Below, piece after piece: positions 2,355 through 21,320 of a stretch of 24,012 bases of DNA. The translations under genes were made by a program, and so were the position numbers. This stretch comes from a virus. The notes under the pieces are model-generated. The model saw nothing but the letters and a program-made list of their open reading frames with translations. It was not told the DNA's origin and did not search any database. Every line of letters begins with the position of its first letter. Position 1 is the stretch's first letter. Location of the stretch: IMG/VR virus record IMGVR_UViG_3300048547_000552, positions 1 through 24,012 of that record; one strand, 5' to 3'.

Positions 2355-5300
2355 ATGGCAACAAAGATTAGACACAAGCGTAGTGCGGTGGCTGGTAAAC
2401 AGCCGTTAGTTTCTCAATTAGAATCAGGTGAATTAGCAATCAACACAGCAGATGGTAAAGTATACCTATTGCGTGATGATAACACTGTACAAGATATTAC
2501 AAGAAGAGTATTTGAAGGAAATACACAATTAGAAGTAGATGACTTAGGTGATAGTACATCAGCTGCAATTACTGCAACTGTTAACAACGACTTAAAAATG
2601 TCAGTTACTGATAATGGTATATTTTTAAACGATGATATTAGTATTAATAATGCAAATACATTAACGTTCAAAGAACTTACAGGTTCTGGTGCTGATGGTA
2701 TTTCATTAAAATCTCCGGATACGCTTGACGCAGGGTACAACCTTACATTGCCTCCACAAGTAGGTACTACTGGTCAGCTTATAGCTACAGACGCACAAGG
2801 AAATTTATTCTTCCAAGATGCAGATATTTTCGGCGGTAACGTTGTTTATGTTAGTGCCGAACAAGGCGATGATGCAAACGATGGTCAAAGTGCTCCAGTT
2901 AAAACTGTAAAACGTGCGTGTCAAATTGCTTCAGGTTTGATTTACAATGCCGATGGCACTACTAATGGTACACGAGTAAACGTAAAAGTTGCAGTTGGTG
3001 ACTATACCGAGGACAACCCTATTATTGTTCCAGATAACACAGTTATCAAAGGTGACGGTTTGCGTGGTTGTATTATTCGTCCTGCAAACGCTAACAGAGA
3101 TATTTTACGTGTTAGAAATGCTTGTTACTTTGGTGAATTTACATTCCGTGATGGCGTCGACGAAAATCAAGTTCCTTTAATTACTGCTGATTATGCTGTG
3201 GCATTTGATGATCCGTTTGATGCTAATATTACTGATCGTGCTGATTATACAAACTTGCCTGACACAAGACCTTTTATTACTACTTCACCTTATATTCAAA
3301 ATGCTTCAATTTTGTCCTTCTTAGGTATGAATGGTGCAAAAATTGATGGTAGCAAAGTTACTTCACCGAACATTGGTTTTATTCCACAAGAGCAAGAAAA
3401 TCCAGTAGTTGGCGCAATACCTGAGCAAGGTAAATCAATGGTTGCCAACGCCTTTACTATTCTATCATTTGGTGGTACAGCGTGGCGACTAACCAACGAT
3501 GCTTATGCACAGATCGTGTCTTGTTTTGAAATCTTCCTACTAAATGGTGTTTATTGTCAGTCAGGTGGTTATTGTTCCATTACTAACTCCGCTACAAACT
3601 TTGGATTGTATGCGTTGAGATCTAGTGGTTATTCACCAAAAGCATTTGAATTTGACCGTGCATTTGTTACAGGTACAGGTGCTTTTGAAGGTTTACAGAC
3701 AGTTAGTATTGTAGGTATCAACAGAGATACACCAGTTGAAGAATTTGTTTTACGCTTCAGAGAAGCCGATTATAAAACAGCATACGAAAGATTGCTAGTT
3801 GAAAAAGATCAAATTGCAGCAGATACTGTTACTTGGATCAATCAACAAATAGCAGCAGCATCGCCAAGTATATGGGCATCATTTGAGTATGATCAAACAA
3901 AATGTGCTAGAGATGTAGGATTGTTAGTAGATGCTATCAGGTGGGATGCTGCATTTGATACTAATTATAGATCAGTTAGTTCTGCACTTACATATTTTAA
4001 CGGTAGATTTCCTTCTGCCTTGTTTGCTGCACAAAAAGCACAACACATAGAAGCATTTACACAAGCAAAATCGTTTACAACTAATATTACACAACAATCT
4101 ACATATGACTCTCGTGTTAACGCACTTTGGGACGAAATTATTGAAATTTTAGATAATGACAAAACATTTACACCAACTACAGGAACAACATACGATCCTA
4201 ACACAGGAATATTAGTTGCTAATATCGGTGCACACAATCTGACCGTAGGTACATCGATAATTATTGCTGATAATAGTTTGACGTTTACTTGTGCATCAGA
4301 TGGCAACACTGCTCAAGTAACATATCCAAGATCAACTGATCCGGCATCAAAAACAGCATTGACAATTTCTGCTGTGACATCTGATACCATTACTGTAAAC
4401 GTTGGAACAAGTAGCGAAACATCTGCACATACATTTATAACATCAGCTGCTAATAGTGTTACTATTGAAGGTGTCGGTGTTACTGGACTTACTGATCCAA
4501 CTGGATATAATAGTAGCTACCTGGCAGGTTACGGAGATGCCAGAACGCAATTAGAAAGCAACAGAAATTTTCTTATAAAAGAAATTACTGCCTGGATTGC
4601 TGTACAAGTTGCTGGAGAAATATCACCATTTGTATCTACGTTTTCATACGATGTTGCTCAGTGCGAAAATGATATAGGATTAATTTTAGATGCATTGAGA
4701 TATGATCTAACATACGGTGGTAATTTACAAACTTTTGATGCAGCAATACAATATTTTGTTGGTACAACAAAACAACTTGCTGATGGTCAAAAAGATGCAA
4801 CATTAGCTTCTTACGCAAGATTAAAAGAAATTATCGGTCAAGTTATTCTTGAACAAGCGGTAACAGTATCCGCTGGTAATGCTTTGACTCAAGACACATC
4901 CGGAACAGCAGGTAGCAGCGATGCGTCTAATGCTGCAAAAGATAGAATACAAGAAATTATTGATTATGTTGATAGCGATGGTGCAACTCCTCCAACTAAA
5001 ATTGAACCAGGTACAACTTGGGTTTCAGCCGCACTTGTAGAAGATAAAGATAGACTATATCCTGAAGCACAAAAAAATATTGGACAAAATGTTAACGCAT
5101 ACATTGAAACACAAGTAGATGCTGCACAGTGGTATAACTTTACATACGATAATTCAAAATGTTTACGTGATACAAAACTGATTGTTGAAGCTGTTGCAAA
5201 AGATGCTTGGGATACAGGTAACAGATATTCACGTAGTGCTGGTTTATCTTACTACAATAAAAACATTGGCGATAGTTCGCAGATTAGTATTAGTGGACAA

Positions 5301-8300
5301 GAAAGACAAACTATAAGTGCTATTAATCAAGCCAAGGCATTAACATTAGCAGAAATTACAAGTCTGTCATTAGCATCACGAAATTTTGTAGGTAGTAGAT
5401 TTGACATAGTAACAACTATTATTAATGATGGTGATGATTTACCAGATGCACAAGATGTAAGTTCAGAAGGCGATATTACAAACGATTTTAAAACCAATGC
5501 TACCGAAAGTACATTTAATGGTTCAACGGATGTAAACGTAAATGTTGATGTATTTACAATTGTAGATCACGGATTTACTAACGGACAAAAAGTAATTTAT
5601 GATCCAGATAACAATCCAGTCATACAAGGACTAGATGCAGAACAAACATATTATATTAAAATTATTAATGATGACGAATTTAGTTTAACATTTGACGAAT
5701 CGGGCGATTTTGATGTTAATGTTCTTGCTACAAGTACCGGTACACATAAATTTTTATCAGGTGTTATTGAATTCTTTGTAAATGAGATTACTGATTCGCA
5801 TACAACTTATCAAACATTAGAATTAGAATCGGGTTCTGAGAGTTATGAGTTTGTACCGGGTAGACAGATTACCGGTGTTACAGGTACAAGTAATAATGCT
5901 GCTATTGTGTTTAGTTGGAAGCCTGCCATAAGAGAACTTATAGTTAGTATAGAACAAGTAGCAGTTGGTCAAAGTTTGTTGCGTATCCAATTCGACGAAA
6001 CTAGTACTATTACAGCAGATCACGCTGGCACACCAAATACCACTATTGGTGTAAATGCTGCGCAATCTAAATTAGGACTTGGTACTGCAACTTTTGCTAT
6101 TAAAGCAACTGACGGTAGTAGTTCTTTAAGTAACCTATCAGCCTTACCAGAAAATCAGGTTTGGTTCCACAGACCAAGTATTGTTAACTCATCATCACAC
6201 ACTTGGGAATATGCAGGTTCAGGTACAGACTATAACGCATTACCACAAAACGGCGGTAACACAAAAAGTGAATTTGAACAGTTTGAAGAACTACCCGGTC
6301 GTGTTTACTCTTCAGGTACAAACGAACTTGGTGACTTTAAAGTTGGTGACTTTATTACAGCGTTTAACAGAACAGGTAATATCACATTTAGAAACAAAGT
6401 TCAGGTTGATGAACTTGATGCTTTGAGACTAAGTTTGTCAGATGTTGCAATTGAAGAAATTTCAACAAGTGTAAACTTAGGCGATGACGAGCTAGGTGGT
6501 GCAAGTAATGCAAGACTTTCAACTCAGTTAGCTGTTAGAGCATTTATTAGTAATAGATTAGGAGGCTTTGTTGACAAAACTGTGTCAACTGCTGCTGTTC
6601 CGGGTGCCATTGTTCAATTAAACACAAATGGACAACTTAATGGAGACTTAATTCCAGCAACACGTCAGTTTACAAATACCAACACACAAGGTTATCAATC
6701 AAGACTTGAACAAGTTGATAATATACCACCTGTTGATTTGAAAGCTGGTGACATTGCTACAGAAAATTATGAACAAGTAGAACTTACTCTAAGTGGAAAT
6801 ATTAGTGCTGCTGACGGAGCTATTATTACACAACCTACTGCATTTGGCGCAACTGGTTATGCCAAAGGACTATATGGTAACAGCGGTAACATTCTTGTAG
6901 CAAGTATTGGCGGTGAATGGATTGTTGGAGACGATAGTACAGGCTCACAATTCCAAACTGGTGTTGGAAACAACATTTTTGTTGACGGTGTTGACAGTGG
7001 TGTATATCCTACAGGTATTGGTCTATCAAGTCAAGTTATTGACAACTTCTTTTTAAGAAGTTCTAATTCAAGTCAATTCCTGATACTAGATCCAACAGAT
7101 GATTATACATTTACTACAAATACAATTACAAACTTAGAACGTACTTCAAATGTTACAACTGCTACAACAAGCGGTGCTCACAATCTCTTAATTGGTAATC
7201 AAATCAGTATTACCTGTTCTGATAATGAAACTTTTGAAACAAATGGACAAGTTATTAGTACGCCAACAAGTACAACATTTACATATTCAAATGTAGATCC
7301 GGATGACGTTGCAAGTTTTGCTGTATCTGACGGTTTTGTTGGCAGTGTTGTAAGAAGTGCTGACGGTAATGCTCAGGGTAGAGTAACTGAATTGAGAGAA
7401 GGTGTGTTATCAGGTATTGATAATTCTAATATTACAGGCGGTACTTTATACACTCCAACAGTAGGAAACCAAACATATCTCGATGTAGTATTAACAAATG
7501 TAACAGGAAGTGGTACGGGTGCTACAGCAGATATTACAGTCACAGCGGGACAAGTTACCGATGTTGATATTAAAACAGGCGGCACAGGTTATGCGATTGG
7601 AGATTTATTAAGTGCAGCTTCTAGTAGTGTAGGAAACACAGGAAGTGGATTCCAGATAGAAGTTACTGCTTTTGAAAAACGTGCTTACATTGACATTATT
7701 GGCGGCGAACTTTTTGTTGCAAGTAGTTCAAGTGTTGACTTTGTAGAAGATAACACTGCTGTACAAACGGCACGAGACATAAACTTAGATGATTTTATCA
7801 CACATAACTTCTTAGCAGGTTCTTCCGGCGCAGGCGGTGCTGTTGACTATACCAACTTTAGAATTACCATACCAAATCACGGATACTCAAATGGTGATCC
7901 ATTAAAATACGATACATTAGGTAATGCTCCAATCGGTGGTATTTTGAACGGACAAGTTGTTTATGCAAAATTCATAGACAATAATACAATTGAATTGTAC
8001 GAAGGATTTGCACTACTTAACAAAATAGAATTTGCAAGTACTCCTGCTAACAACAATCATAATTTGACAAGAAGTACAGTTAACATAACTGACAACAGCG
8101 TTATTATCGAGAATCACGGATACACAACAGCCGATGCTGTTAGATTAAACACACTATCAGACGGTAGTTCAAGTAATGCATTACCTATAGTTGATGGTGC
8201 CGATCCTATTCCAGACGGTTCTAGATTCTTTGTTGGTTCTGTAACTACTAACTCATTTACACTACACGTTCTACGCAGTGATGCTCTAAGCAGTATTAAT

Positions 8301-11300
8301 GATCTTGTAACAAATCCAGAAGATTTAACAAGTGTAGGAATTGGTACTGCTAGAAGTACACGAAGTAATGCTCAAGTTACAGGTCAAATTAATACATCAA
8401 GTAGATTAAAGAAAAATTGGAATACACTCGCTGTTACAAATATTGATGCTGAAAATATTATTTCAGGTATTATATCACCAAGTAGACTTGGCGGTAGCGG
8501 TGTTCCAAATAGTGACACATTCCTAAGAGGTGATAGTGCATATTCTGTTGTTGTACAAAAACTTAAAAAGGCAAGTACAACTGAAAACCCAATTACACTT
8601 GTAGGCAATAGCGTAAGTCAAGAGTTTTACGGCACTGTTAGTATTGGTGTCAATAATGTTGACCTTGATCCGGGCGGAACATTCTCTACACTAGGTGTTT
8701 CAAAATTTTTACAATCACAATTTGATGTAAACGCTAATGCTAGTGGCGAAGTATTCCTTAAAGATGGTGTTGTTGATGCTGGTACACTGGATTCATTAGA
8801 TAGTGCATACTTTCTTAATCCTGCAAACTTAACAAGTCCTGTTCCTGTAAACAGAGGAGGGACAAACATTACTTCTTATGCTAGAGGCGATTTGCTTTAT
8901 GCAGAAACAACTGGTACACTTAATCCATTATCTATAGGTAGAAACAATGCTATCTTAAAATCAAACGGTGAAACACCTGAATGGGGCACAGCACTTGATC
9001 TTGCAGAAGGATTAGACGTTGGTGCTGCTGCACTTACTTCTGCAAGCACAGGTAGTGGTACTGTATATAATGATAATGTCACAAGTTTAAATATTGGCGG
9101 CGATGCAACTAATATCGATATAGGTAGTACAGAAGGTACAAGAAACTTATTTCCATTTTTAGACGGATATGATGCTAGTGCAAGTCAAAATGTTGTAGGT
9201 AATTTAAAAAGCATAACTGCTACCACAAATGATCCAACTGACAACGGATTAAACGAAATTCCATTAGATGATACATCTAGTGTACTTGCAGGAATGATTG
9301 TAACTGGAAGTGGTAGTATCCCTGCAAACACAACAGTAAGCGGTGTTACAGGTGATTACATTTATTTAAGCAACAATACAACTGGTACTATTTTAAGTGG
9401 AGCAACATTAACATTTACATACACACCAAAAACACTTGGTATCGATGTAGGTGATACAATTAATATTGGCTCAAGTACAAAAACTAATCTAGACGGTACT
9501 TGGCCAATAATTGGTGCTACATCTAATGCTACATCGTTTACATTCCAGACTGATGCAAATGTTACATCAAATCCAGTTGATGTTCCTGCAGGCCAATTAA
9601 CTATAAACGCAAACTTCGTTGTAAAAAATCCTAATATGTTTATCGGTAATGCGCAAAACTCTACTGCTCCTGTAAGTGGTATTATAGCTGGTACAAGTGC
9701 AATAGGCATAGACACAGAAGGTGGTGATTTAACACTACAAGCTGGTTTAGGTACAGGTAATGCAACAGGTGGTGACTTTATTATTAGAACCGGTGAAGCG
9801 TTAACTACAAGCGATATTCAACATATTGCAACAACACGTATGACCATTGATACTGCTGGTAAAGCAGCATTTACCGGCGAAGTTGAAGTAAATGACACAA
9901 TCAGTACAACAGAAACTACTGTTGGGTTGTTAGACGATACTGCTACTACAATTAATATGGGCGGTGATGCAACCACAGTTGAAATTGGTGCTGCAACAGG
10001 CACAACAACTGTACATAACAATTTAGATGTTGATTTAGATCTTAATGTAGATGGCGGTGATATCACTACTAACCAAACTACAATGAATGTGATAAATGCT
10101 AATGCAACAACAGTAAATGCATTTGGTGCAGCTACAACTATTAATTTAGGTACCGGCGGTGACGGCGGCGGCACAACTACTATTGGACACGACCTAGTAG
10201 TAAGCGGAGATCTTACTGTAAACGGAGATACGACAACTATTAATTCGACAGAATTAACTGTTGATGATAAAACTATTACAATAGCAAGCGGAGCAGCAGA
10301 TGGGTCAGCAGCCAACGGAGCTGGTATACTTGTTGATGGCGCAAATGCAAGTCTACTTTGGGATAATGCTAATACAAGTTGGGATAGTACTGAAGATTTT
10401 AACTTAGCAAGTGGTAAACAGTACTATATAAACGATGCTAGTGTTCTTAGCAGTACAACACTAGGTGGTGCTGTTGTAAACAGTAGTTTACAAACATTAG
10501 GTACAATTGGTACTGGTGTGTGGCAAGGCACAATAATTTCTCCAACATACGGCGGAACTGGTGTAAACAATGGCACTAAAACAATAACACTAGGCGGCAA
10601 TCTTACGCACAGTGGAGCGCATACATTAACACTGACTACAACAAATAACACAAATATTACTTTACCAACAAGTGGCACATTATCGATAACAGGTAATCCA
10701 TTAAGTCAATTCGCATCAACAACTAGTGCGCAACTAGCAGGTGTGATAAGCGACGAAACAGGTACTGGTAATTTGGTGTACAACAACAATCCAAACTTTA
10801 CAAACAGTGTAACCACATCTAGTGCAACTTTTGCAGCATTTAACACAAATGCAACAACCGTTAATGCATTTGGTGCAGCAACAGCATTAGGATTAGGTGC
10901 TACATCGGGTACAACTACTGTAAACAACGGATTAGCTGTTTTAGGTAATTTGAGTATTGGTGGATTAAGTGATCTTACTGTTAGTGGTGGTACATTTAGT
11001 CTTGCAAATACAGGTGCAACAACAGTCAATGCATTTGGTGCAGCTACAACTATTAATATGGGTGCAAGCACTGGTACAATGAACTTGAACAATGCTAACG
11101 TTGTAGTTGCAGGTGATTTAGCAGTAAATGGTAACACAATTGATACAGACGAAACAGGTACATTTAACTTACTAAAAGATAATGCAACTGCTATTGCGTT
11201 TGGACAAGCTGCTACAGCAATTGTAATTGGTGAAACTTCAGGTACAAGTACATTTAGACATAATGTAACAATCGATCAAGATCTAACAATTACAGGCAAC

Positions 11301-13430
11301 TTGGTTATTGGTGCTATTGACAATGTGCCAATTGGACAAACTACACCAGCTGCTGGTGGATTTACAACATTAAGTGCAAACAACTTTGTAACATTTACAG
11401 ATGCTACAAATGCAACAGGTGATTTTGCAACTGGTAGTGCTTCGGTAAAAATTACAGGTGGTTTACACGTTGCTAAGGACATTAAAGCAGATAACTTTAT
11501 TGGTGATTCTAGTGCTAATGATTTAACAAGCGGCACTATACCAGATGCAAGAGTTCCATCTAGTGCAATCACACAACACCAAACAGATATTACTGCAACT
11601 GGTATTTTAAATGGTGGTAGTATTACATCAGGATTTGGTAACATTGATATTGGTACAAGCACATTCAGTGGTAATGGTAGCGGACTTACAACTTTGTCAG
11701 CAACACAGTTAACTACTGGAACAATACCAGATGCAAGAATACAATCAAGCGGCGTTACTCAACACCAAGGAGATATTTCAGGAGTAGGAACACTTGCTTC
11801 AGGTAGTATTTCAAGTGGCTTTGGTAATATTGATATTGGAACAAACAGTATTACAGCAACTGGTGCAGCAAGCTTAGGTTCAACAAACTTTAATGATAAT
11901 AACCTAACAAATGTTGGAAACATAGCACTAGACAGTTTAAGTGCAGATAATGGTGCGTCTATAAGTGTAAATGCTAATGCAATTGTTACAATATTGAATA
12001 CAAGTAGTGCTACAAGTACAACAAGTGGAGCATTACGTGTAAGTGGCGGACTTGGTGTTGCTGGAAATATTTACGGCGGAGCAATTTACACAGCAAACGG
12101 TGCAAATATACAATCATTAAATGCAAGTAACTTATCAAGTGGTACAGTTCCAAACACTAGAATTGATGGAACATATAGTAACTTAACAGGCACTGGTGCA
12201 TTAGACGCAGGTGAAATTACTTCTAACTTTGGTAATATTAATATTGGCACAAGTACATTTACTGGTAATGGTAGTGGACTTACTAATGTAGATGCAGACA
12301 CATTAGATGGTATTAACGGAGCAAGTTTGTTACGTAGTGACGAAGCTGATACAATGGCAGGATTGTTGACTATGAGTCACGCAGGTGACGAAATGATCAG
12401 ACTGGCTGACACAAGTTCAACAGGTAATCCATATATCAGTTGGTATCAAGCTGGCACACGTAGAGCTTATATGCAATATGTTGATAGCGGCGATAGAGTA
12501 TATATTGCTAACGAAGGCGGAAGTACTGCTATTAATTTAGATGGCGGAACTAGCGGACTTGAATTTATTGAAGGTTCAAATACATATACAGTTTGGCACA
12601 GTGGTAATGACGGTGCTGGTAGTGGACTAAATGCTGATACACTAGATGGTGTAAGTTCAGGTAGTTTCTTACGCAGCGATGCTAACGATAGTTTCTCAGG
12701 AACAATTAGTGGTGCAGGAGATATTAGCATATCAGGTAACATTACCGCTGCTACATTTACAGGTGATGGTAGTGGACTAACAGGTGTTACTGCTACAAAC
12801 GCAAGTACACTAGACAACTTAGATAGTACAGAGTTCTTGCGCAGTAATGCTAGTGATGCGTTTACTTCTGGTACACTTACAATTAACGATGATTTAGCAT
12901 TACAATTGGGCTCTAGCACTTCAAACGCATTTCAATGGAGATTTGAAGATGCAAATGGTAAACTACAAGGGCGTTTTTATGGAAGTGCTACTTTTATTGC
13001 CTTGTCAGATTATAGCTCAGGAAGTTTTGGCGGCGAAAAGATATTATTAAGGAGAAACGGTAATATTGACGCATCAGGTGAAATTACAGCATATTACTCA
13101 GATGCAAGATTAAAAGATTTCCAAGGTACAATACCAAATGCACTAGACAAAATTATGAGTCTAAATGGATACTATTTCACTGAAAATGATAAAGCCAAAG
13201 AACTTGGATACTCAAATGATAAAATGCAAATTGGTGTTAGTGCCCAAGAAGTACAGGCAGTATTACCAGAAATAGTAAAACTAGCACCTATATCTCAAAA
13301 CGAAGGAGTTGATGATTATTATACTGTGTCTTATGAAAAGTTAACTCCTGTGTTAATTGAAGCAATAAAAGAACAGCAAACTCAAATCGATGAACTCAAA
13401 GAAATGGTACAAAAACTACTAGATAAATAA
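2355..13430 (+). CDS. Giant 3,691-residue tail fibre/adhesin with C-terminal S74 chaperone
   Basis: The start is a phage-fibre opening (MATKIRHKRSAVAGKQP, then GELAINTADGKVYL). Residues about 160-460 (VYVSAEQGDDANDGQSAP onward) resemble a DUF1565/pectate-lyase-like parallel beta-helix. A helical repeat with a YDxxxCxxDxxL core follows at residues 512, 765 and 931. Next come several 'HGY/HGF' or related AHNL beta modules (around nt 4210, 5555, 7150, 7855 and 8090) and a GTGATADITV / GGTGYAIGD segment (7435-7665). From 9049 to 11256 there are six degenerate ATTxNxGxATG units. Then come TIPDAR repeats and three DxLDGxxSxxFLRSD-like units (12240-12880). The last 110 residues are a Peptidase_S74 intramolecular chaperone (SDARLK at 3582, AQEV, a YEKL segment and a final EAIKEQQ coiled coil). 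It is most likely a homotrimeric host-recognition fibre; the receptor cannot be predicted. Confidence 0.9.
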   Translation: MATKIRHKRSAVAGKQPLVSQLESGELAINTADGKVYLLRDDNTVQDITRRVFEGNTQLEVDDLGDSTSAAITATVNNDLKMSVTDNGIFLNDDISINNANTLTFKELTGSGADGISLKSPDTLDAGYNLTLPPQVGTTGQLIATDAQGNLFFQDADIFGGNVVYVSAEQGDDANDGQSAPVKTVKRACQIASGLIYNADGTTNGTRVNVKVAVGDYTEDNPIIVPDNTVIKGDGLRGCIIRPANANRDILRVRNACYFGEFTFRDGVDENQVPLITADYAVAFDDPFDANITDRADYTNLPDTRPFITTSPYIQNASILSFLGMNGAKIDGSKVTSPNIGFIPQEQENPVVGAIPEQGKSMVANAFTILSFGGTAWRLTNDAYAQIVSCFEIFLLNGVYCQSGGYCSITNSATNFGLYALRSSGYSPKAFEFDRAFVTGTGAFEGLQTVSIVGINRDTPVEEFVLRFREADYKTAYERLLVEKDQIAADTVTWINQQIAAASPSIWASFEYDQTKCARDVGLLVDAIRWDAAFDTNYRSVSSALTYFNGRFPSALFAAQKAQHIEAFTQAKSFTTNITQQSTYDSRVNALWDEIIEILDNDKTFTPTTGTTYDPNTGILVANIGAHNLTVGTSIIIADNSLTFTCASDGNTAQVTYPRSTDPASKTALTISAVTSDTITVNVGTSSETSAHTFITSAANSVTIEGVGVTGLTDPTGYNSSYLAGYGDARTQLESNRNFLIKEITAWIAVQVAGEISPFVSTFSYDVAQCENDIGLILDALRYDLTYGGNLQTFDAAIQYFVGTTKQLADGQKDATLASYARLKEIIGQVILEQAVTVSAGNALTQDTSGTAGSSDASNAAKDRIQEIIDYVDSDGATPPTKIEPGTTWVSAALVEDKDRLYPEAQKNIGQNVNAYIETQVDAAQWYNFTYDNSKCLRDTKLIVEAVAKDAWDTGNRYSRSAGLSYYNKNIGDSSQISISGQERQTISAINQAKALTLAEITSLSLASRNFVGSRFDIVTTIINDGDDLPDAQDVSSEGDITNDFKTNATESTFNGSTDVNVNVDVFTIVDHGFTNGQKVIYDPDNNPVIQGLDAEQTYYIKIINDDEFSLTFDESGDFDVNVLATSTGTHKFLSGVIEFFVNEITDSHTTYQTLELESGSESYEFVPGRQITGVTGTSNNAAIVFSWKPAIRELIVSIEQVAVGQSLLRIQFDETSTITADHAGTPNTTIGVNAAQSKLGLGTATFAIKATDGSSSLSNLSALPENQVWFHRPSIVNSSSHTWEYAGSGTDYNALPQNGGNTKSEFEQFEELPGRVYSSGTNELGDFKVGDFITAFNRTGNITFRNKVQVDELDALRLSLSDVAIEEISTSVNLGDDELGGASNARLSTQLAVRAFISNRLGGFVDKTVSTAAVPGAIVQLNTNGQLNGDLIPATRQFTNTNTQGYQSRLEQVDNIPPVDLKAGDIATENYEQVELTLSGNISAADGAIITQPTAFGATGYAKGLYGNSGNILVASIGGEWIVGDDSTGSQFQTGVGNNIFVDGVDSGVYPTGIGLSSQVIDNFFLRSSNSSQFLILDPTDDYTFTTNTITNLERTSNVTTATTSGAHNLLIGNQISITCSDNETFETNGQVISTPTSTTFTYSNVDPDDVASFAVSDGFVGSVVRSADGNAQGRVTELREGVLSGIDNSNITGGTLYTPTVGNQTYLDVVLTNVTGSGTGATADITVTAGQVTDVDIKTGGTGYAIGDLLSAASSSVGNTGSGFQIEVTAFEKRAYIDIIGGELFVASSSSVDFVEDNTAVQTARDINLDDFITHNFLAGSSGAGGAVDYTNFRITIPNHGYSNGDPLKYDTLGNAPIGGILNGQVVYAKFIDNNTIELYEGFALLNKIEFASTPANNNHNLTRSTVNITDNSVIIENHGYTTADAVRLNTLSDGSSSNALPIVDGADPIPDGSRFFVGSVTTNSFTLHVLRSDALSSINDLVTNPEDLTSVGIGTARSTRSNAQVTGQINTSSRLKKNWNTLAVTNIDAENIISGIISPSRLGGSGVPNSDTFLRGDSAYSVVVQKLKKASTTENPITLVGNSVSQEFYGTVSIGVNNVDLDPGGTFSTLGVSKFLQSQFDVNANASGEVFLKDGVVDAGTLDSLDSAYFLNPANLTSPVPVNRGGTNITSYARGDLLYAETTGTLNPLSIGRNNAILKSNGETPEWGTALDLAEGLDVGAAALTSASTGSGTVYNDNVTSLNIGGDATNIDIGSTEGTRNLFPFLDGYDASASQNVVGNLKSITATTNDPTDNGLNEIPLDDTSSVLAGMIVTGSGSIPANTTVSGVTGDYIYLSNNTTGTILSGATLTFTYTPKTLGIDVGDTINIGSSTKTNLDGTWPIIGATSNATSFTFQTDANVTSNPVDVPAGQLTINANFVVKNPNMFIGNAQNSTAPVSGIIAGTSAIGIDTEGGDLTLQAGLGTGNATGGDFIIRTGEALTTSDIQHIATTRMTIDTAGKAAFTGEVEVNDTISTTETTVGLLDDTATTINMGGDATTVEIGAATGTTTVHNNLDVDLDLNVDGGDITTNQTTMNVINANATTVNAFGAATTINLGTGGDGGGTTTIGHDLVVSGDLTVNGDTTTINSTELTVDDKTITIASGAADGSAANGAGILVDGANASLLWDNANTSWDSTEDFNLASGKQYYINDASVLSSTTLGGAVVNSSLQTLGTIGTGVWQGTIISPTYGGTGVNNGTKTITLGGNLTHSGAHTLTLTTTNNTNITLPTSGTLSITGNPLSQFASTTSAQLAGVISDETGTGNLVYNNNPNFTNSVTTSSATFAAFNTNATTVNAFGAATALGLGATSGTTTVNNGLAVLGNLSIGGLSDLTVSGGTFSLANTGATTVNAFGAATTINMGASTGTMNLNNANVVVAGDLAVNGNTIDTDETGTFNLLKDNATAIAFGQAATAIVIGETSGTSTFRHNVTIDQDLTITGNLVIGAIDNVPIGQTTPAAGGFTTLSANNFVTFTDATNATGDFATGSASVKITGGLHVAKDIKADNFIGDSSANDLTSGTIPDARVPSSAITQHQTDITATGILNGGSITSGFGNIDIGTSTFSGNGSGLTTLSATQLTTGTIPDARIQSSGVTQHQGDISGVGTLASGSISSGFGNIDIGTNSITATGAASLGSTNFNDNNLTNVGNIALDSLSADNGASISVNANAIVTILNTSSATSTTSGALRVSGGLGVAGNIYGGAIYTANGANIQSLNASNLSSGTVPNTRIDGTYSNLTGTGALDAGEITSNFGNINIGTSTFTGNGSGLTNVDADTLDGINGASLLRSDEADTMAGLLTMSHAGDEMIRLADTSSTGNPYISWYQAGTRRAYMQYVDSGDRVYIANEGGSTAINLDGGTSGLEFIEGSNTYTVWHSGNDGAGSGLNADTLDGVSSGSFLRSDANDSFSGTISGAGDISISGNITAATFTGDGSGLTGVTATNASTLDNLDSTEFLRSNASDAFTSGTLTINDDLALQLGSSTSNAFQWRFEDANGKLQGRFYGSATFIALSDYSSGSFGGEKILLRRNGNIDASGEITAYYSDARLKDFQGTIPNALDKIMSLNGYYFTENDKAKELGYSNDKMQIGVSAQEVQAVLPEIVKLAPISQNEGVDDYYTVSYEKLTPVLIEAIKEQQTQIDELKEMVQKLLDK
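9049..11256 (+). repeat. Six degenerate NATTVNAFGAATTINxG repeats
   Basis: The units lie near 9049-9147, 9929-10024, 10083-10150, 10834-10940, 11000-11088 and 11173-11256, all in frame inside the giant fibre. Units 3 and 5 share about 30 nearly identical bases (aatgcatttggtgcagctac, then aactattaat). Unit 4 keeps the first half of that block. A related copy is in the upstream fibre gene near 1027-1064. These are likely beta-strand fibre-shaft modules, and they also provide homology for recombination within and between fibre genes. Confidence 0.75.
13098..13427 (+). other. S74 intramolecular chaperone with predicted self-cleavage site
   Basis: This is the region of the giant fibre gene for its last 110 residues. 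In the endosialidase/S74 family a Ser in an SDxRLK motif attacks its own backbone, and a nearby Lys assists. Here YSDARLK keeps both the Ser (codon 13098-13100) and the Lys. Cleavage before this Ser would release the chaperone after trimer folding, leaving about 3,581 residues in the virion. Downstream family landmarks are present: the LNGYYF segment, GVSAQEV, LPEIV, and a C-terminal helix starting near EAIKEQQ. Confidence 0.8.
13422..13429 (+). promoter_or_regulatory. Candidate late promoter GATAAATA overlapping the fibre stop codon
   Basis: The octamer is identical to the one before gp13 (21297-21304). It is made from the last codons and stop of the giant fibre (D-K-stop). With T4 spacing, transcripts would begin near 13435, just before the hairpin at 13438, and would run into the small downstream genes. 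It may be a chance product of the codons GAT AAA TAA. Confidence 0.35.
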
Positions 13431-13519: not shown

Positions 13520-13690
13520 ATGGCACTACCAAATACGGGAAGCACAATTACAATGAGCCAGATATCCAACTACTTTAGTGGGCCATCTAGCAACATTAGC
13601 ATAGGTGCTGATTTAGGTCCATACATAGGTATATCAAATGGCACTACAATTTCTATGAGTAGTTCATTTGGCGGATACTACTTTCCTTAA
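13520..13690 (+). CDS. Small structural-like protein (MALPxxGxI family), 56 residues
   Basis: This short gene begins MALPNTGSTITMSQISNYF and ends SSFGGYYFP. It resembles a widespread small phage module that starts MALPxxGxIxxxQI and ends with a TISMSxxxG motif, found as separate small proteins or as fibre domains. That resemblance is from memory of the family; its exact role is not established. It sits at the head of the plus-strand cassette, directly after the sigma70-type promoter and a weak Shine-Dalgarno (CTAGGAAAC). The next gene starts 16 bases after its stop. Position next to the fibres suggests a small virion component. Confidence 0.7.
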   Translation: MALPNTGSTITMSQISNYFSGPSSNISIGADLGPYIGISNGTTISMSSSFGGYYFP

Positions 13691-13706
13691 ACACACAGGA
13701 GAAGTT

Positions 13707-14081
13707 ATGAAAACATTATATGAAGTAATGAATATTGATCTAGCTGATGAATATACAAAAACAAGAAAAGTTGCTAAAGGTGCAACACTAGGGTTAGATG
13801 AAAAATTAGCTGATAAGGTTTCGGCTGCTATCGACGAACTTGATATTCCACAAGACGACGAACGTCATCATTGGATCCAAAAGCTTGGTAAAGCAGCTGG
13901 TGTAGACTTACTTACATTAGGTAAAGTACAACCTGAAAATATGTTAGCAATGGCAGGATTAGGTGATGATTTCCAAGAAGCAGTAAAAGTTGCAACAAGC
14001 ACAGCAAGGAAATTAAATCAAAAAACAATCGATGCTGAAAAAGACTTGAACGAAGAATTGATACCGACTAACACATTATGA
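13707..14081 (+). CDS. Unrecognised 124-residue protein
   Basis: I chose the ATG at 13707 because AGGAGA lies 3 bases upstream of it (13698-13703) and the preceding gene stops at 13690. An in-frame TTG at 13668 would overlap that gene and lacks a ribosome site. The protein is charged and mostly helical in appearance, with no signal peptide or membrane segment. It starts MKTLYEVMNIDLADEYTK and contains DDERHHWIQKLGKAAGVDLL. Its stop overlaps the next start (ATGA), which indicates translational coupling with the glycosyltransferase-like gene. I do not recognise the family. Confidence 0.75.
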   Translation: MKTLYEVMNIDLADEYTKTRKVAKGATLGLDEKLADKVSAAIDELDIPQDDERHHWIQKLGKAAGVDLLTLGKVQPENMLAMAGLGDDFQEAVKVATSTARKLNQKTIDAEKDLNEELIPTNTL

Positions 14082-14662
14082 AATTAAGTATCTGTGTGCC
14101 TTGTAGAGATCAAGTGCATACACTGTTTACTCAAAGTTTAGTTAATTTAACTAATAGGCTTACACGCAAACAAATAGAGTTTGAACTACATCTATTTGCT
14201 GGTAGTGTAATCTGTGAATCACGTACACGTCTTGTTGAAGAAGCACTATCTGTAAACAGTGATAAAATATTATTCTTAGACAGTGATATACAATTTCCAT
14301 CAAATATGATAGATAAATTGTATTCTCATAACAAAGATATTGTGGCGGCTAACTACAGCACAAGGTACCCAATTTATCAAAGTGTTGCATTTACCGATCC
14401 AGAAAATATTACAGCAAGATTAGACGCAACACAAGGTCTGCATAAGATCTGGGCAGTCGGAATGGGATGTATGCTTATTGATATAGATGTTTTTCATACA
14501 TTGCCTAAGCCTTGGTTTGTACACGAATATAATAAAATAGACGATACGTTCAGCGGCGAAGATATATACTTTTGCAATCAAGCAATGCATCACGGCATTG
14601 ATGTTTGGGTAGACTCTGATATAAAATTAGGGCATATAGGAACAAAGGCTTACACACTATGA
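14078..14662 (+). CDS. GT-A glycosyltransferase-like protein, 194 residues
   Basis: The N-terminus MKLSICVPCRDQVHTLF is a typical beta1 strand and loop of family-2-like GT-A enzymes. FLDSDIQFPSNMIDKLY at about residues 67-83 holds a DSD motif, which would bind the divalent metal and nucleotide-sugar. The segment DIVAANYSTRYP follows. A later AVGMGCMLIDIDVF segment and the acidic FSGEDIYFC segment resemble the acceptor/base region of such enzymes. It is short but appears complete. ATGA overlaps join it to both neighbours, so the three genes are probably translated together. Likely role: transferring a sugar onto a phage or host-surface target. Donor and acceptor are unknown. Confidence 0.75.
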   Translation: MKLSICVPCRDQVHTLFTQSLVNLTNRLTRKQIEFELHLFAGSVICESRTRLVEEALSVNSDKILFLDSDIQFPSNMIDKLYSHNKDIVAANYSTRYPIYQSVAFTDPENITARLDATQGLHKIWAVGMGCMLIDIDVFHTLPKPWFVHEYNKIDDTFSGEDIYFCNQAMHHGIDVWVDSDIKLGHIGTKAYTL

Positions 14663-17600
14663 GAGCAATAGATAGATTTGAAAAATTTTCTAAGCCGTTA
14701 CACAACGGTCAAGATCAATTAAAAAATTTAATATTTGATAGATATCCAGTTTTGAAAATGGACGATTATTGCAACTTAGATAAAGCTTTGGCAGCCGCTT
14801 CAAATTTTGATAGCGATTATGTTTGGATTGTAGACACAAATATAAGAGTATATGATAGCTTTCCTTGGTGGTTCAAACCACGAGCAATTGACGAAGTACA
14901 AATACACGAATTTCCTTATGTATATAAAGAAAGTAGAAAAGTAAAATCTTGGGATAAAGTTAGATTAGTACCAACAAAAAAAGTAGATACTGAGCCAAGA
15001 CAACATATACACATATGCGGTGAATACGATGTATATAAAGGAAACGACAAATTTGATGCATTTTACATAGGAAGCAATCAAGAAGATATTGATAAACTTA
15101 CACAAAAAGTTCCACATTTACAAACTGTTGAGAACTGGTATGAAGCACAGGCTAAATCATACACAGGTATGTTTTGGGTAGTGTGGGAAGATATTGATGT
15201 TAGAGATACATTTAAATTTAGTTATAAACCAGATGAGTGGAGTCACGATAATGTACACGTTTTTGGTAACGGAGATATAGATACATTAGATGGCGTTGCT
15301 TTGTTTCCTAAAAACTATAAAATCACAGACAAAGAACTTGAACACAGATTTTATGTTAACAAAAAAGAAGTAAGGATAATGGCAAGTACGCCTAAGCCTT
15401 ACAATAAGTTTTCTATAAACAGCTACAAAGAATATGAATATGCACTGCAAAATTCTGAAACAGATTTATTTTGGGGTGTTCCAGACGATATAGAAATTAC
15501 TGATAATAATATTTTTAATTTTTATATTGATCATCATAATCAATCTTTAAAAAACAAAAATCACGTCTGGCTTAACAATAACAAATACAACGGATTGGTT
15601 TTGTTTAGTAAGAATAGTATTGTTACAAATAAAGAAATCGAATATAGATTTATTGCTGATAGAATAGAACACGATACGATTGTTAGTAAATCAAAACCTT
15701 TTAATGTTTTTGTTATCAACAATTATAAAGATTATTTAAATGCATTAGATAAAACCGAAACACAGATGTTTTTAGGTGTGCCAAGCGATGTGATATTAAA
15801 TGATTTTGATATAAATGAATATTTTTATGATTTAGATGAACTTGATACTGGAACTACACATTTATTTTTAAATGGAGAAAACTTTGACGGAGTTGCTTTG
15901 TACAGCAAAAGTAATTCTGTAACTGAAAAAGAAGTTGAGCACAGATTTTATACAAATAAAAAAGAACACAATATCGTTGTAAGTAATCCACGTGCATATG
16001 AAAAATTTGTTATTAATAATTATAACGATTATCTAAATGCACTAAAAGAAACAAAATCAGATATGTTTTGGGGAGTACCTTCTGATGTAGATGTGTGTGA
16101 AGATTTTGATTTTGATTTATATTTTAGTCATCATAATAAATTTGATAGAGAAATAAATCACGTTTTTTTAAATAAAGAATTTTATGACGGTATTGTTCTT
16201 TTTAGTAAAAAATCTATTTGTACAGAAAAAGAAGTTGAAGCACGTTTTTATGTCAATAAAAAAGAACATAAAATAGTAGCAAGTAATCCAAAAAAATACG
16301 AAAAGTTTATTATTTCAAGTTATGATGATTATTTACGAGCAAGAGATCAATCAAAAACAGATTTATTTTATATTGTTTATAACGACATAGAAATTTTGGA
16401 TACTTTTGACTTTGATGTTTATATTTCACATCATAATCAATACGAAAGAAAAATTAATCACGTATGGAAAAATGGAAATTTTTACGACGGAGTAGCATTG
16501 ACTACAAAATCTATTATGCTCACAAAGCACGAAATTGATTATAGATTTTTTGCAGTAAAGAAAGAATATAAAGAAGTTGCTAGTATTCCAGATTCATTTG
16601 AAGTAGTGTTTATTAGTAATGGCGAAATAAATGCTGATAAAAATTACAATAAATTATTACTAGAATATCCTAATGCAAAGCGTGTAGATAAGGTTAAAGG
16701 TATTCACCAAGCTCATATTGCTGCTGCAAAATTAGTTGACACAAAAATGTTTTGGGTTGTTGACGGAGATGCAGAAGTACTAGAAGATTTTGAGTTTGAT
16801 CATCAAATTGCACACTACGATATAGATGGTTATAAAACAGTTTTTGTATGGCGAAGCTTAAATCCTGTAAATAATTTAATTTACGGATATGGAGGTGTAA
16901 AACTTTTACCAACTGAACTTACTTTGAATATGGATGTAGAAACTGCTGATATGACTACAAGTATTAGTAAAAACTTCAAAGGTGTAAACAGAATGAGCAA
17001 TGTTACTGCATTTAACACTGATGCCTTTAGTGCGTGGCGAAGTGGATTTAGAGAGTGTGTAAAACTTGCAAGTAAAGCTATAGATAGACAAGTCGAAGAT
17101 GAAACTACCTTTAGATTAAAAGCCTGGTGTTCAAGAGGAGCAGACAACCCTTTTGGGCTAGAAACTATTGCTGGAGCGTATGAAGGAGCAAAGTACGGTT
17201 TAGCATTTAAAAACAACAAGGATGCACTAAGAAAAATTAATGATTTTAAGTGGCTAAACGATAAATTTAAAAATACATTTGATCCCAATGTAAAAGAGTA
17301 TGATTTAAATTTTTTAGACGAATCAGAAGAACAAGCAATGCTTAGATTTAATCCTATTACAAAATCAATTTTTCAACAAATAGAAAAAAAATTAGGAAAA
17401 AATTATAGATATAAATCAGGTACGGTCAAGTTTGTGATTGAAAATGTAGGAGATATTTATTTTGATAGTAAAGGTGTAAGAATAAGTAAAGCCTATGCTG
17501 ATGCTGAAATAATTGTTGATTTAAAAACTGCACTAAAAGCTCTTGCTGGAGAAGCCGATACATTGGCTTTGTATAAAGCAGGCACTATAGTAATCGAAGG

Positions 17601-17970
17601 CGATGCTGATCTTGCTCAGCATTTTTTTGCAGACTTACGTAAAAATATTGAAGCTGGTATCCAAACAGATATTTCCTTATATATTATCGAACTCAACAAT
17701 TTTTTAATTGAAACAGCACATTTAAATATATCATTTGAAATTGAAGATGTTGGCAATATATCTATAAACGGAACTGGTATAAAAGAATCTGCGGAAACAT
17801 TAGAAACTAATGTTAAGTTAGTAGAAGATAATTGGAAAAAATTGCTAGATGGCGAATTAACAATAGTAGATCTTATTCAAGAAAAGATGGCAATTTTTAC
17901 TGGCGATATACTTCAAATTATAGAACTTAATCAACTATTTCATTATCGAAAAAAACATCAATTAGTTTAA
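14659..17970 (+). CDS. 1,103-residue GT-A-like tandem-repeat protein with two SCP2-like C-terminal segments
   Basis: Seven units carry a (M/L)FWxVxxD(I/V)xV core at residues about 55, 171, 270, 370, 469, 569 and 697. The middle five are spaced 99-100 residues apart and also share SHHNQxxxxINHVFxNxxxYDGVxLFSK and EKEVExRFYxNKKEH segments. The last unit (VVDGDAEV) keeps a full DxD motif and is followed by a conserved-looking block (VFVWRSLNPVNNLIYGYGG; AWRSGFRECVKLA; residues about 720-870). Inner copies have P, W or Y in place of the first D. Residues about 923-994 (VIENVGDIYF to VIEGDADLAQHFF) resemble SCP2 sterol-carrier-type domains. A second, shorter SCP2-like segment is at 1025-1083 (FEIEDVGNISINGTG to AIFTGD). 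The start overlaps the upstream stop (ATGA). I infer a GT-derived enzyme or binder; no substrate can be named. The 3' end overlaps the convergent Nudix gene by 44 bases. Confidence 0.8.
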   Translation: MRAIDRFEKFSKPLHNGQDQLKNLIFDRYPVLKMDDYCNLDKALAAASNFDSDYVWIVDTNIRVYDSFPWWFKPRAIDEVQIHEFPYVYKESRKVKSWDKVRLVPTKKVDTEPRQHIHICGEYDVYKGNDKFDAFYIGSNQEDIDKLTQKVPHLQTVENWYEAQAKSYTGMFWVVWEDIDVRDTFKFSYKPDEWSHDNVHVFGNGDIDTLDGVALFPKNYKITDKELEHRFYVNKKEVRIMASTPKPYNKFSINSYKEYEYALQNSETDLFWGVPDDIEITDNNIFNFYIDHHNQSLKNKNHVWLNNNKYNGLVLFSKNSIVTNKEIEYRFIADRIEHDTIVSKSKPFNVFVINNYKDYLNALDKTETQMFLGVPSDVILNDFDINEYFYDLDELDTGTTHLFLNGENFDGVALYSKSNSVTEKEVEHRFYTNKKEHNIVVSNPRAYEKFVINNYNDYLNALKETKSDMFWGVPSDVDVCEDFDFDLYFSHHNKFDREINHVFLNKEFYDGIVLFSKKSICTEKEVEARFYVNKKEHKIVASNPKKYEKFIISSYDDYLRARDQSKTDLFYIVYNDIEILDTFDFDVYISHHNQYERKINHVWKNGNFYDGVALTTKSIMLTKHEIDYRFFAVKKEYKEVASIPDSFEVVFISNGEINADKNYNKLLLEYPNAKRVDKVKGIHQAHIAAAKLVDTKMFWVVDGDAEVLEDFEFDHQIAHYDIDGYKTVFVWRSLNPVNNLIYGYGGVKLLPTELTLNMDVETADMTTSISKNFKGVNRMSNVTAFNTDAFSAWRSGFRECVKLASKAIDRQVEDETTFRLKAWCSRGADNPFGLETIAGAYEGAKYGLAFKNNKDALRKINDFKWLNDKFKNTFDPNVKEYDLNFLDESEEQAMLRFNPITKSIFQQIEKKLGKNYRYKSGTVKFVIENVGDIYFDSKGVRISKAYADAEIIVDLKTALKALAGEADTLALYKAGTIVIEGDADLAQHFFADLRKNIEAGIQTDISLYIIELNNFLIETAHLNISFEIEDVGNISINGTGIKESAETLETNVKLVEDNWKKLLDGELTIVDLIQEKMAIFTGDILQIIELNQLFHYRKKHQLV
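15169..16662 (+). repeat. Five protein-level tandem repeats of about 100 residues
   Basis: Repeat cores begin at codons 15169, 15466, 15766, 16063 and 16363, a spacing of 297, 300, 297 and 300 bases. The DNA copies are too diverged for simple slippage, but the protein pattern is clear and regular. The end point is approximate. Confidence 0.75.
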
Positions 17971-18379
17971 TTGTAGTTTCCAGCTTTGTGGCGTTTATTT
18001 TTTTACGCAGTGTATTAGCAAGTCCGTTGTGCAGCGGCTTAGGCCATTTACCAAAACTTACCCACGCATAGCCATCGTGTTCGTTATTCAATAAAGGCAA
18101 AAATTCTTTGTCAACTACACAAAGATATGTATGAAAATAAAAATGTTGGTCATTAGATATAAAACTTTCCAAAGGAACAACTTTTTTTATATCTGTTATT
18201 GTACCAATTTCTTCTTTTATTTCTCGTTGTAATGCTTCCCAAGGAGATTCTGAACTTTCGTTAGTACCGCCTACAAGTCCCCACTGATTTTTTGTTTTAC
18301 TTTGTGTACGATGTAATAGCAAAAAACGTTTGGTACTTAAAGAATAAAATAAAGCACCACTACAAATTATCTGGTTCAT
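17927..18379 (-). CDS. Nudix hydrolase, 150 residues
   Basis: The protein holds a near-perfect Nudix box (GX5EX7REUXEEXGU): the second Gly of GLVGGTNESSE, the following Glu, then REIKEEIGT at about residues 53-61. The final hydrophobic position is Thr. The length matches a single-domain Nudix enzyme. The family hydrolyses nucleoside diphosphates linked to another group, such as oxidised dNTPs, ADP-ribose, NADH or dinucleoside polyphosphates. The substrate here is not predictable. It is the last gene of the minus-strand block, starting 12 bases after the gp15 stop, without a clear Shine-Dalgarno, so it may depend on coupling to gp15. Its 3' end overlaps the 1,103-residue gene tail-to-tail by 44 bases. 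Confidence 0.9.
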   Translation of the reverse strand: MNQIICSGALFYSLSTKRFLLLHRTQSKTKNQWGLVGGTNESSESPWEALQREIKEEIGTITDIKKVVPLESFISNDQHFYFHTYLCVVDKEFLPLLNNEHDGYAWVSFGKWPKPLHNGLANTLRKKINATKLETTIKLIDVFFDNEIVD

Positions 18380-18391
18380 ATAGTAATTATT

Positions 18392-20125
18392 TTATATAAT
18401 TAAATCCCAAGCGCCTCTTGGATATAATCCGTCAATTGCATATTGCCAATAATATTGATTGTAGTAAAATTGTTGATCTGTATTTAAGTTTGTAATATAA
18501 ACTGGATTAGTAGATTCACTAGCATCAAATATTATATTCCACTGAGATCCGTCCCATTCCACTATGTCGTGTGTATCAGCAATAAAGTCTCTGCTACTTG
18601 TGCTCTTCCAAGCATCGGCACCGTCTTCATTTATATATAAAACATATCTTACTTCATCACCGGGTCTAGGAGCGTCTGATAATCTAATTACCAACGATCC
18701 GTCAATTGTTTCTTGTGTAGCAGCATCTGTAACTCTAGTATTTTCTACAAATACATCAAAATCATAAACTACATCTGCATCTACTTCGGTTTCTATTCTT
18801 GTTGTGCTACCTGTAACTGTATAAATTCTTTCAATTGCACCACCAATGGGTTGTAATAATAAAAGCCTTATACCGTCTGCTTTTACAACATTTGGATTAA
18901 AATCACGTGGATTTATAATATAATCAATTGTACCTCTACTTGTTACACCAGTTATTACAGTATCACTTGGTTTTGTGTCAATGTCATAATTTAAAACTAA
19001 TTCCTGTGAGTTATTTCCATTTATTTGAAATGTTGCTACAATAGGTGTAAGCAGTTCGCCTCTTTTTAATCTTATCTGACTTATACCTGGTTGATACTTA
19101 GCAGGGGCTTCTGCTTCTATTACATTGTACCAATTTATTTCTCCAATACGTGCAGCATTTTTTCCTAGTTTAACAATATCACCTTCAACAATAATATCAA
19201 AATTCCTATAACTTGCAGTGTTTACATTTGCAACATTTAAGTTACCATCTGGAGAAGTTTTAATTATGGTTGCACGAGTGTCATCAGGGGTAAGTTTTTT
19301 ATAATTAATTTGTCCGTTGTCGTCGACTACTGCACCTGGAGGAGTAGAAGGTTGTTGTGTTATTACAGTACCATCTGGCATTACAACTGTTCCTGTTGCT
19401 GCTTTTGTTGTATCTCCTGTGTCAGGATTAAATCCTTCTAATTCTATAGTACCAGCATCAAAGTTTAGAACGCTGTTGATTATTTCTGTAATTACACCAA
19501 GTTTCTTAACTTTTGTTGGTGGTGAAATATACACAGGAGCTATAAAGCTTAATGTTGCGATATCTATTTCAGATTCTGTTCCAGTAGGAATACTTCTACT
19601 ACTAAAGTTAATATTTTCTAATTGCAAAACACTTAAACTTGTCCAGTCAACATAATTATCATTAGTTTGGAATTCTAAGTCAGGATTAAATAACATAAAA
19701 ATTTGTTCTAGTATTTGTAATTTTTGTTCAGTATTCGTACTCCAAATATCAACATTTACACTTAATGTATATGGAGTAGGATGTAATCTTTCAACAGTAT
19801 AACCTTTTCCTTGTTGATTTTTGTATTCTTGCGCAGAAGTATCAAAATCTCTTTCTTTTACATTTATTTTACTAACAAAACTACTATCACTTAATCTAGC
19901 TCTATCCATTTGCATACTAGTAATGTATACACTCATTCTAGGAGCACTTGGTAATTTATTTTCGCTGTTTTCTCTAATTATATTTGAAACTTGACGTGTC
20001 AAATCTCCATATGTTACAGGTACTACACGCAAATCTCCGTCGCCGTCTTTATAACTAAAATTACTAAAAGCTCTAATAATTTGTGTAAGATATCTACGTA
20101 TCTGTCCGTCATAAAAATATTGCAT
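18392..20125 (-). CDS. 15: Tail sheath stabiliser/completion protein (T4 gp15-like), extended
   Basis: The first ~230 residues match the T4 gp15 pattern. They begin MQYFYDGQIRRYLTQIIRAF (T4: YFYNSSFRRYATLMGDLFSN), followed by RVPVTYGD, then PRMSVYITSMQMDR, HPTPYTLSVNVDIWS, and LEQIFMLFNPDLEF. In T4, gp15 caps the tail tube and sheath and joins them to the neck. At 577 residues this is about twice T4 gp15. The extra C-terminal part is beta-rich and ends with a WDGSQWNIIFDASES / YPRGAWDL module, as is common in marine T4-like virion proteins. Its ATG overlaps the gp14 stop (TAATG), so the two are translationally coupled. Confidence 0.88.
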   Translation of the reverse strand: MQYFYDGQIRRYLTQIIRAFSNFSYKDGDGDLRVVPVTYGDLTRQVSNIIRENSENKLPSAPRMSVYITSMQMDRARLSDSSFVSKINVKERDFDTSAQEYKNQQGKGYTVERLHPTPYTLSVNVDIWSTNTEQKLQILEQIFMLFNPDLEFQTNDNYVDWTSLSVLQLENINFSSRSIPTGTESEIDIATLSFIAPVYISPPTKVKKLGVITEIINSVLNFDAGTIELEGFNPDTGDTTKAATGTVVMPDGTVITQQPSTPPGAVVDDNGQINYKKLTPDDTRATIIKTSPDGNLNVANVNTASYRNFDIIVEGDIVKLGKNAARIGEINWYNVIEAEAPAKYQPGISQIRLKRGELLTPIVATFQINGNNSQELVLNYDIDTKPSDTVITGVTSRGTIDYIINPRDFNPNVVKADGIRLLLLQPIGGAIERIYTVTGSTTRIETEVDADVVYDFDVFVENTRVTDAATQETIDGSLVIRLSDAPRPGDEVRYVLYINEDGADAWKSTSSRDFIADTHDIVEWDGSQWNIIFDASESTNPVYITNLNTDQQFYYNQYYWQYAIDGLYPRGAWDLII

Positions 20126-21282: not shown

Positions 21283-21287
21283 AGTTA

Positions 21288-21304
21288 TATTTATGCGATA
21301 AATA
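21288..21304. promoter_or_regulatory. Palindromic divergent late promoter pair
   Basis: The sequence TATTTATGCGATAAATA has perfect 7-base inverted arms around GCG. Read on the minus strand it gives CATAAATA (21295-21288) toward gp14. Read on the plus strand it gives GATAAATA (21297-21304) toward gp13. With T4 late-promoter spacing, gp13 transcripts begin near 21310, giving an 11-base leader that starts with GGAGA. gp14 transcripts would begin at 21282, exactly the A of its ATG. Confidence 0.65.
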
Positions 21305-21320
21305 TATATGGAGAACTTCA

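Follow-up and report, generated by a model that had tools for sequence, protein, structure and literature searches.

What use does a phage have for a protein that repeats a glycosyltransferase (GT)-like core several times, when only the last copy keeps the DxD motif? The question is raised by IMG/VR virus record IMGVR_UViG_3300048547_000552, positions 1 to 24,012, a 24,012-nucleotide stretch from an uncultured aquatic phage, all of which we refer to as the window. Its plus-strand gene at 14659 to 17970 encodes a 1103-residue protein in which truncated GT-A-like units stand in tandem ahead of one intact GT-A-like domain and an SCP2-like tail. Inactive enzyme copies are usually single partner domains; here an enzyme core has been cut down and multiplied up to sevenfold per chain; purifying selection maintains the copies, and the array has repeatedly grown and shrunk within one virus family.

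Truncated units, terminal domain and SCP2-like tail

The repeat gene and the parts of its product are:

14659..17970, plus strand: repeat-array GT-A-like protein with SCP2-like tail, 1103 amino acids (open reading frame (ORF) confirmed)
14659..15012, plus strand: N-terminal region, residues 1-118, with a degenerate seventh core near residue 54 (sequence comparison)
15055..15312, plus strand: unit 1, residues 133-218, strand-1-like start kept, WED at the DxD position
15313..15612, plus strand: unit 2, residues 219-318, PDD at the DxD position
15613..15912, plus strand: unit 3, residues 319-418, PSD at the DxD position
15913..16209, plus strand: unit 4, residues 419-517, PSD at the DxD position
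16210..16509, plus strand: unit 5, residues 518-617, YND at the DxD position
16591..17298, plus strand: terminal GT-A-like domain, residues 645-880 (AlphaFold2 model; Foldseek matches to glycosyltransferases)
16762..16770, plus strand: DGD motif, residues 702-704
17416..17628, plus strand: SCP2-like copy 1, residues 920-990 (PF02036, over cut-off)
17659..17967, plus strand: SCP2-like copy 2, residues 1001-1103, weak (profile comparison with copy 1; sub-cut-off match in locus L014)

The core (M/L)FWxVxxDxxV occurs in exact form at residues 171, 270, 370, 469, 569 and 697, with spacings of 99, 100, 99, 100 and 128 residues, and a seventh, N-terminal copy near residue 54 is degenerate (YVWIVDTNIRV). 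Shuffled versions of the protein contained on average 0.03 matches (maximum 2), which rules out a chance or low-complexity origin. Units 2-5 share 37-57% pairwise identity (z 24-51), and over a 66-residue alignment unit 4 has 47% identity with the last unit (z 15); the inner units are therefore homologous to the terminal domain, whose own sequence matches them. Along the chain the DxD position reads WED, PDD, PSD, PSD, YND and then DGD, so that a true DxD stands in the last unit only. The same loss is seen across the family, where the first Asp is kept in 3 of the 139 inner units with a readable core (among 163 full units). Judged by these residues, the array is non-catalytic.

The inner units are not merely inactivated. 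Each corresponds to about 75 of the 235 residues of the GT-A-like domain and covers terminal-domain positions ~25-97 together with a long strand. In the numbering of the terminal-domain model, units 2-5 are without strand 4-9, helix 15-25 and the helices after 145; the first strand-helix element, which bears the S and E residues, is missing from the inner units, with a strand-1-like start kept by unit 1 only, and the helical C-terminal half is likewise missing. The 100-residue spacing and the model together rule out repeats of full GT-A domains, and therefore only the central part of the domain is repeated. Nor are the units decaying pseudo-repeats: between the window and its relative L006, the ratio of nonsynonymous to synonymous substitution rates (dN/dS) is 0.015-0.165 in the units and 0.084 in the terminal domain. 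Such strong purifying selection means that the units are retained. They also carry signature residues of their own (NKKE...VAS and NHV), each largely conserved over the 163 units, and are modelled by AlphaFold2 at a predicted local distance difference test score (pLDDT) of about 90. The sequence-only reading had described seven units sharing the core, five of them 99-100 residues apart, with DxD confined to the last, and all of this holds, the seventh copy being the degenerate one. Its further proposal, that a glycosyltransferase fold was duplicated into a non-catalytic array, stands as to derivation from a GT-A-like domain and needs amending as to extent, the inner units being truncated cores and not whole folds.

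The terminal domain is modelled with high confidence (pLDDT 92.3, predicted template modelling score 0.87). Foldseek returned 18 PDB matches with E <= 1e-3 and probabilities of 0.97-1.00, all glycosyltransferases (CgT, SunS, RmlT, PGANT9, ArnC, WrtF) apart from one sugar nucleotidyltransferase (HddC), which bears out the glycosyltransferase-like fold that had been suggested. The domain thus has a GT-A or nucleotide-diphospho-sugar transferase fold, with the reservation that whole-domain TM-scores (TMq) to solved structures are 0.28-0.41; part of the domain is therefore matched, presumably its nucleotide-binding half. When the full-length model was used as query, its many domains confused the fold comparison, and every match had E > 0.001. 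Across an alignment of 82 terminal domains we found invariant S, E, DxD, N, YGxGGxK-type and W...FRE..K residues; the motif after the third strand is DGD or DAD, with both Asp residues present in 82 of 82. When bacterial homologues are added, E12, D58, D60, N91, G101, K104 and F153-R154-E155, among others, are still invariant. Pfam GT2 is weakly matched by 27 of the 82 members (best E 0.002-0.005, under the cut-off), and because no member passes that cut-off we call the domain GT-A-like and not GT2. A PDB sequence search returned no match for the whole protein or for the terminal-domain profile. The domain is predicted to be the single catalytic unit of the chain, and would bind a nucleotide-sugar and a metal.

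Two SCP2-like segments follow the terminal domain. For copy 1, the sequence-only reading (residues 923-994) is upheld by a PF02036 match at residues 920-990 (E 4.4e-7, 30.6 bits against a cut-off of 21.3), with scores of 30.6-33.2 bits for the window and its close relatives. The weaker pattern that it had placed at 1025-1083 is backed by similarity to copy 1, with which copy 2 aligns in register (hhalign probability 90, E 1.7e-6), and by the L014 counterpart, which matches PF02036 under the cut-off (17.9 bits, E 0.004); in the window itself copy 2 has no Pfam match and so falls outside the curated family. Its predicted order of strands and helices resembles that of copy 1, at low confidence, and it diverges rapidly among distantly related members (dN/dS 0.6-0.7). 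The only PDB hint for copy 1 is UbiJ at E 0.69, which we do not count as evidence, and PHROG does not cover the segment. On the tree the SCP2 pair was gained once, in one fully supported clade, and none was found in 24 related contigs outside that clade, many of them fragments. This rules out SCP2 as a general family trait. Since SCP2 is a late, single-clade addition, lipid binding cannot explain the array itself.

Array length, relatives and gene context

Relatives of the terminal domain are encoded in at least 578 stretches of metagenomic viral contigs and in none of the cultivated-phage records searched, a collection of 50,697 phage records that gave no match for the window protein or for two relatives. 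Together with the lack of a significant PHROG match, this rules out membership in a known phage family. Protein lengths form a ladder of ~225, 350, 455, 555, 660, 760, 870 and 970 amino acids, in steps of about 100, equivalent to the terminal domain plus 0-7 units, and the tree built from phage terminal domains requires no fewer than 20 changes in unit number. In the longest arrays (L049, L085) units within one array are up to 78-83% identical, and expansion there is therefore recent. This is a large family without a name, and its graded array lengths would allow a direct test of any link between repeat number and the length or specificity of the acceptor. None of the loci examined has an array of units without a terminal domain. 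In L044 the array is divided into two overlapping ORFs (4398-5726 and 5704-6675), the cause being an error in sequencing, a frameshift or a genuine split of the gene.

The terminal domain alone also occurs as a conserved, unnamed family in Streptomyces, Nocardia, Micromonospora, Photorhabdus, Bdellovibrionales and other bacteria, where no arrays were found beyond the domain's own match. Often placed beside radical-SAM or glycosyltransferase-like genes (the latter judged by sequence), it is elsewhere fused to GT-B, GT2 or radical-SAM/SPASM domains. Fusion ORFs lie on bacterial or prophage-like contigs (L105:3804-5711, L168:3729-5927, L124:4671-6572, L099:3051-4637, L102:4128-5678), and their partners comprise radical-SAM/SPASM (L105), GT-B (macrolide-GT-like), GT2 and the terminal domain's own 300-residue paralogue. 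A few 'bacterial' contigs (e.g. L102 and L172) bear the phage cassette and are probably phage or prophage DNA. In a recurrent actinobacterial gene group (L113, L116, L131, L175; Streptomyces, Micromonospora), a GT-like gene of 385-425 amino acids is followed by the terminal-domain gene, with an extra GT-like gene downstream in L113 and L116; the middle, terminal-domain gene has no Pfam or NCBIfam name. Since the terminal domain belongs to an unnamed bacterial family, one biochemical assignment would annotate many bacterial genes.

In the phage relatives the common cassette consists of a tail fibre gene, a small gene, two 280-residue genes that are GT-like by sequence (DxD-bearing, without a Pfam match), a 200-residue gene, the 300-residue terminal-domain paralogue, the repeat gene and, last, between one and five radical-SAM genes. 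Radical-SAM neighbours occur at 50 of 70 loci, and in L035, L052, L055, L059 and L085 up to five successive genes of the radical-SAM cluster c1 (about 390-520 amino acids each) lie directly 3' of the repeat gene. NAD epimerases, UDP-glucose/GDP-mannose dehydrogenases and GDSL-like hydrolases are also encoded in the cassettes. In the window's clade a 194-residue GT-like gene replaces the 300-residue paralogue, and the stretch examined has no radical-SAM gene. The gene order in the window is tail fibre, small conserved gene, 194-residue GT-like gene and repeat gene, and then, on the minus strand, a Nudix hydrolase gene and tail genes. The near neighbours are:

2355..13430, plus strand: tail fibre gene, 3691 amino acids, upstream neighbour (PHROG tail fiber protein, E 6e-118 over the first 1000 residues)
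13668..14081, plus strand: small conserved gene, cluster c9, present at 19 loci (phrog_1409, unknown function; the relatives' start corresponds to the MKTLYE methionine at 13707)
14078..14662, plus strand: 194-amino-acid GT-like gene (Pfam Anp1, E 2.3e-6, just under the cut-off; phrog_1574, E 1e-25)
17927..18379, minus strand: Nudix hydrolase gene, tail-to-tail with the repeat gene (PF00293, E 1.4e-19)

The repeat gene overlaps the 194-residue GT-like gene by 4 nucleotides, a similarly short overlap being found in most relatives, and it is translationally coupled to this upstream gene. With the tail fibre and GT-like genes it forms a region that resembles a host-recognition region. The phage is contractile-tailed and infects bacteria; its tail genes find their nearest counterparts, at 29-42% identity over partial length, in jumbo phages such as Sinorhizobium phage Phosso, Agrobacterium phage Atu_ph07 and PA5oct-like Pseudomonas phages. 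The Nudix gene overlaps the repeat gene tail-to-tail by 44 nucleotides and is kept as a neighbour in 26 loci of the window's clade. Farther along, between neck and sheath genes, the plus-strand gene at 22081-22908 is SGNH-like by its GGCSFTAG start, with a weak DUF6071 match (E 1.7e-4, under the cut-off), and proteins similar to its product (cluster c17) occur in ten loci. The ORFs at 20125-21453 (minus strand) and 21321-22088 (plus strand) have starts that overlap by ~130 nucleotides as listed, and a later start, at the MPRLSLYRPEK methionine, is probable for the minus-strand gene.

Proposed function and its rivals

We tentatively favour, at somewhat less than even confidence, a phage glycosyltransferase with a non-catalytic acceptor-binding array and SCP2 domains on the lipid end, acting on a host envelope glycan during infection. 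The terminal domain, with its intact DxD and its S/E/N and FRE motifs, would transfer the sugar, a step well supported by sequence and fold. The inner units have lost the donor site and are retained as a folded array, which most likely grips an extended or repeating acceptor (glycan chain or fibre) and offers it to the end domain. We propose this role because the units are under purifying selection and vary in number. In the window lineage the two SCP2-like domains would most likely bind the lipid portion of an acceptor that is lipid-linked or membrane-bound, a role suggested by the biology of SCP2, since the SCP2 domain of UbiJ is proposed to bind a polyisoprenoid tail (PMC9499169). The purpose would most likely be modification of a host envelope glycan.

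Several results weigh against this interpretation. The C-terminal half of the terminal domain is unmatched by solved structures, the cut-offs of the Pfam glycosyltransferase models are passed by none of the 82 members, and the PHROG search gives the repeat protein no name. The AlphaFold2 model is unreliable at the C-terminus, with pLDDT < 50 for residues 942-1103. No sugar-nucleotide or lipid-carrier gene was identified within the window. SCP2 is missing from nearly all family members, and a lipid-linked acceptor is therefore not a general feature.

The closest competitor is an enzyme whose substrate is a protein of the phage's own virion, the tail fibre or another, and in which the array would grip a repetitive fibre and SCP2 would serve as a protein contact or in membrane-side assembly. 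Phage-encoded enzymes that glycosylate virions have a precedent in mycobacteriophages, according to work cited in PMC12619734. The repeat gene lies downstream of the 3691-residue tail fibre in the window, and arrays are on the tail-fibre side of the cassette at 43 of 48 array loci versus 10 of 22 single-unit loci (Fisher p 1.5e-4). This linkage keeps fibre glycosylation in play, yet it does not hold up as an argument that the fibre is the substrate when relatedness is taken into account, with 3 independent pairs left. SCP2 and the sugar-nucleotide enzymes of the relatives are better suited to envelope glycans, which are slightly favoured for that reason, and we hold virion glycosylation to be rather unlikely. 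It is improbable that the whole chain is non-enzymatic, for instance an adhesin-like rod attaching to host glycans, its GT-A domains serving as lectin-like modules. The position among structural genes, the non-catalytic units and TM-scores below 0.5 to active enzymes are what such a protein would show, whereas the DxD Asp pair and other motif residues of the terminal domain are invariant across phages and bacteria, the bacterial domain stands alone beside glycosyltransferases or is fused to them, and the gene is translationally coupled to another GT-like gene.

The frequent radical-SAM neighbours, the radical-SAM/SPASM fusion in L105 and the presence of the peptide S-glycosyltransferases SunS and ThuS among the best fold matches bring up a different product, a modified peptide or small glycoside (glycocin-like, or like a ribosomally synthesized and post-translationally modified peptide), with the array binding a peptide or partner enzymes instead of a glycan. 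However, the window's clade is without radical-SAM genes in the stretch examined, the relatives also carry sugar-nucleotide enzymes, and no precursor peptide turned up, none having been looked for; we consider a pathway of this kind quite improbable. Envelope-glycan modification by the terminal domain is thus still the account that we favour. A broader and more doubtful proposal is that uncultured aquatic phages encode a new class of modular glycosyltransferase, in which a tunable array of dead, truncated core copies would serve as a ruler that holds the acceptor for a single active unit at the end, array length would track a fast-changing acceptor, and a lipid-holding SCP2 pair would have been added in one lineage.

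Comparison with known systems

Among the papers listed, we found none of relevance that links SCP2 to phage glycosyltransferases or describes arrays of inactive glycosyltransferases in phages. Among viral proteins, A0A6J5L5L5 (1076 amino acids) and A0A6J5LK21 (804 amino acids) of uncultured Caudovirales contain a fold like the terminal domain (TMq 0.82-0.85, 26-27% identity); both are unannotated and are likened to the window protein through that one domain. In context, the nearest parallel is the host-recognition cluster of pelagimyophages, whose tail-fibre island contains glycosyltransferases along with radical-SAM cassettes, interpreted by the authors as modifying the host O-chain (PMC7029224). 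Tail fibres adjoining glycosyltransferase and radical-SAM genes, ahead of neck genes, are shared with the phage loci described here, and the passages of that report consulted name GT8 and other glycosyltransferases, with a repeat-array protein not among them.

Copy 1 of the tail exceeds the Pfam gathering score of the SCP2 family (PF02036, e.g. UbiJ), and differs from that family in being fused to a GT-A-like repeat protein and followed by a degenerate second copy. With GT-A glycosyltransferases such as SunS, RmlT, PGANT9 and ArnC the phage protein shares the beta-alpha-beta order, the S..E after strand 1 and the invariant DxD after strand 3, whereas it has no PDB sequence match and no passed Pfam model, and has a compact C-terminal half and tandem truncated units. 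The chondroitin polymerase K4CP, which is among the fold matches, likewise has more than one GT-A-derived domain per chain. In K4CP these are two full-length active domains, whereas the phage family places up to seven truncated, DxD-less units ahead of one intact unit.

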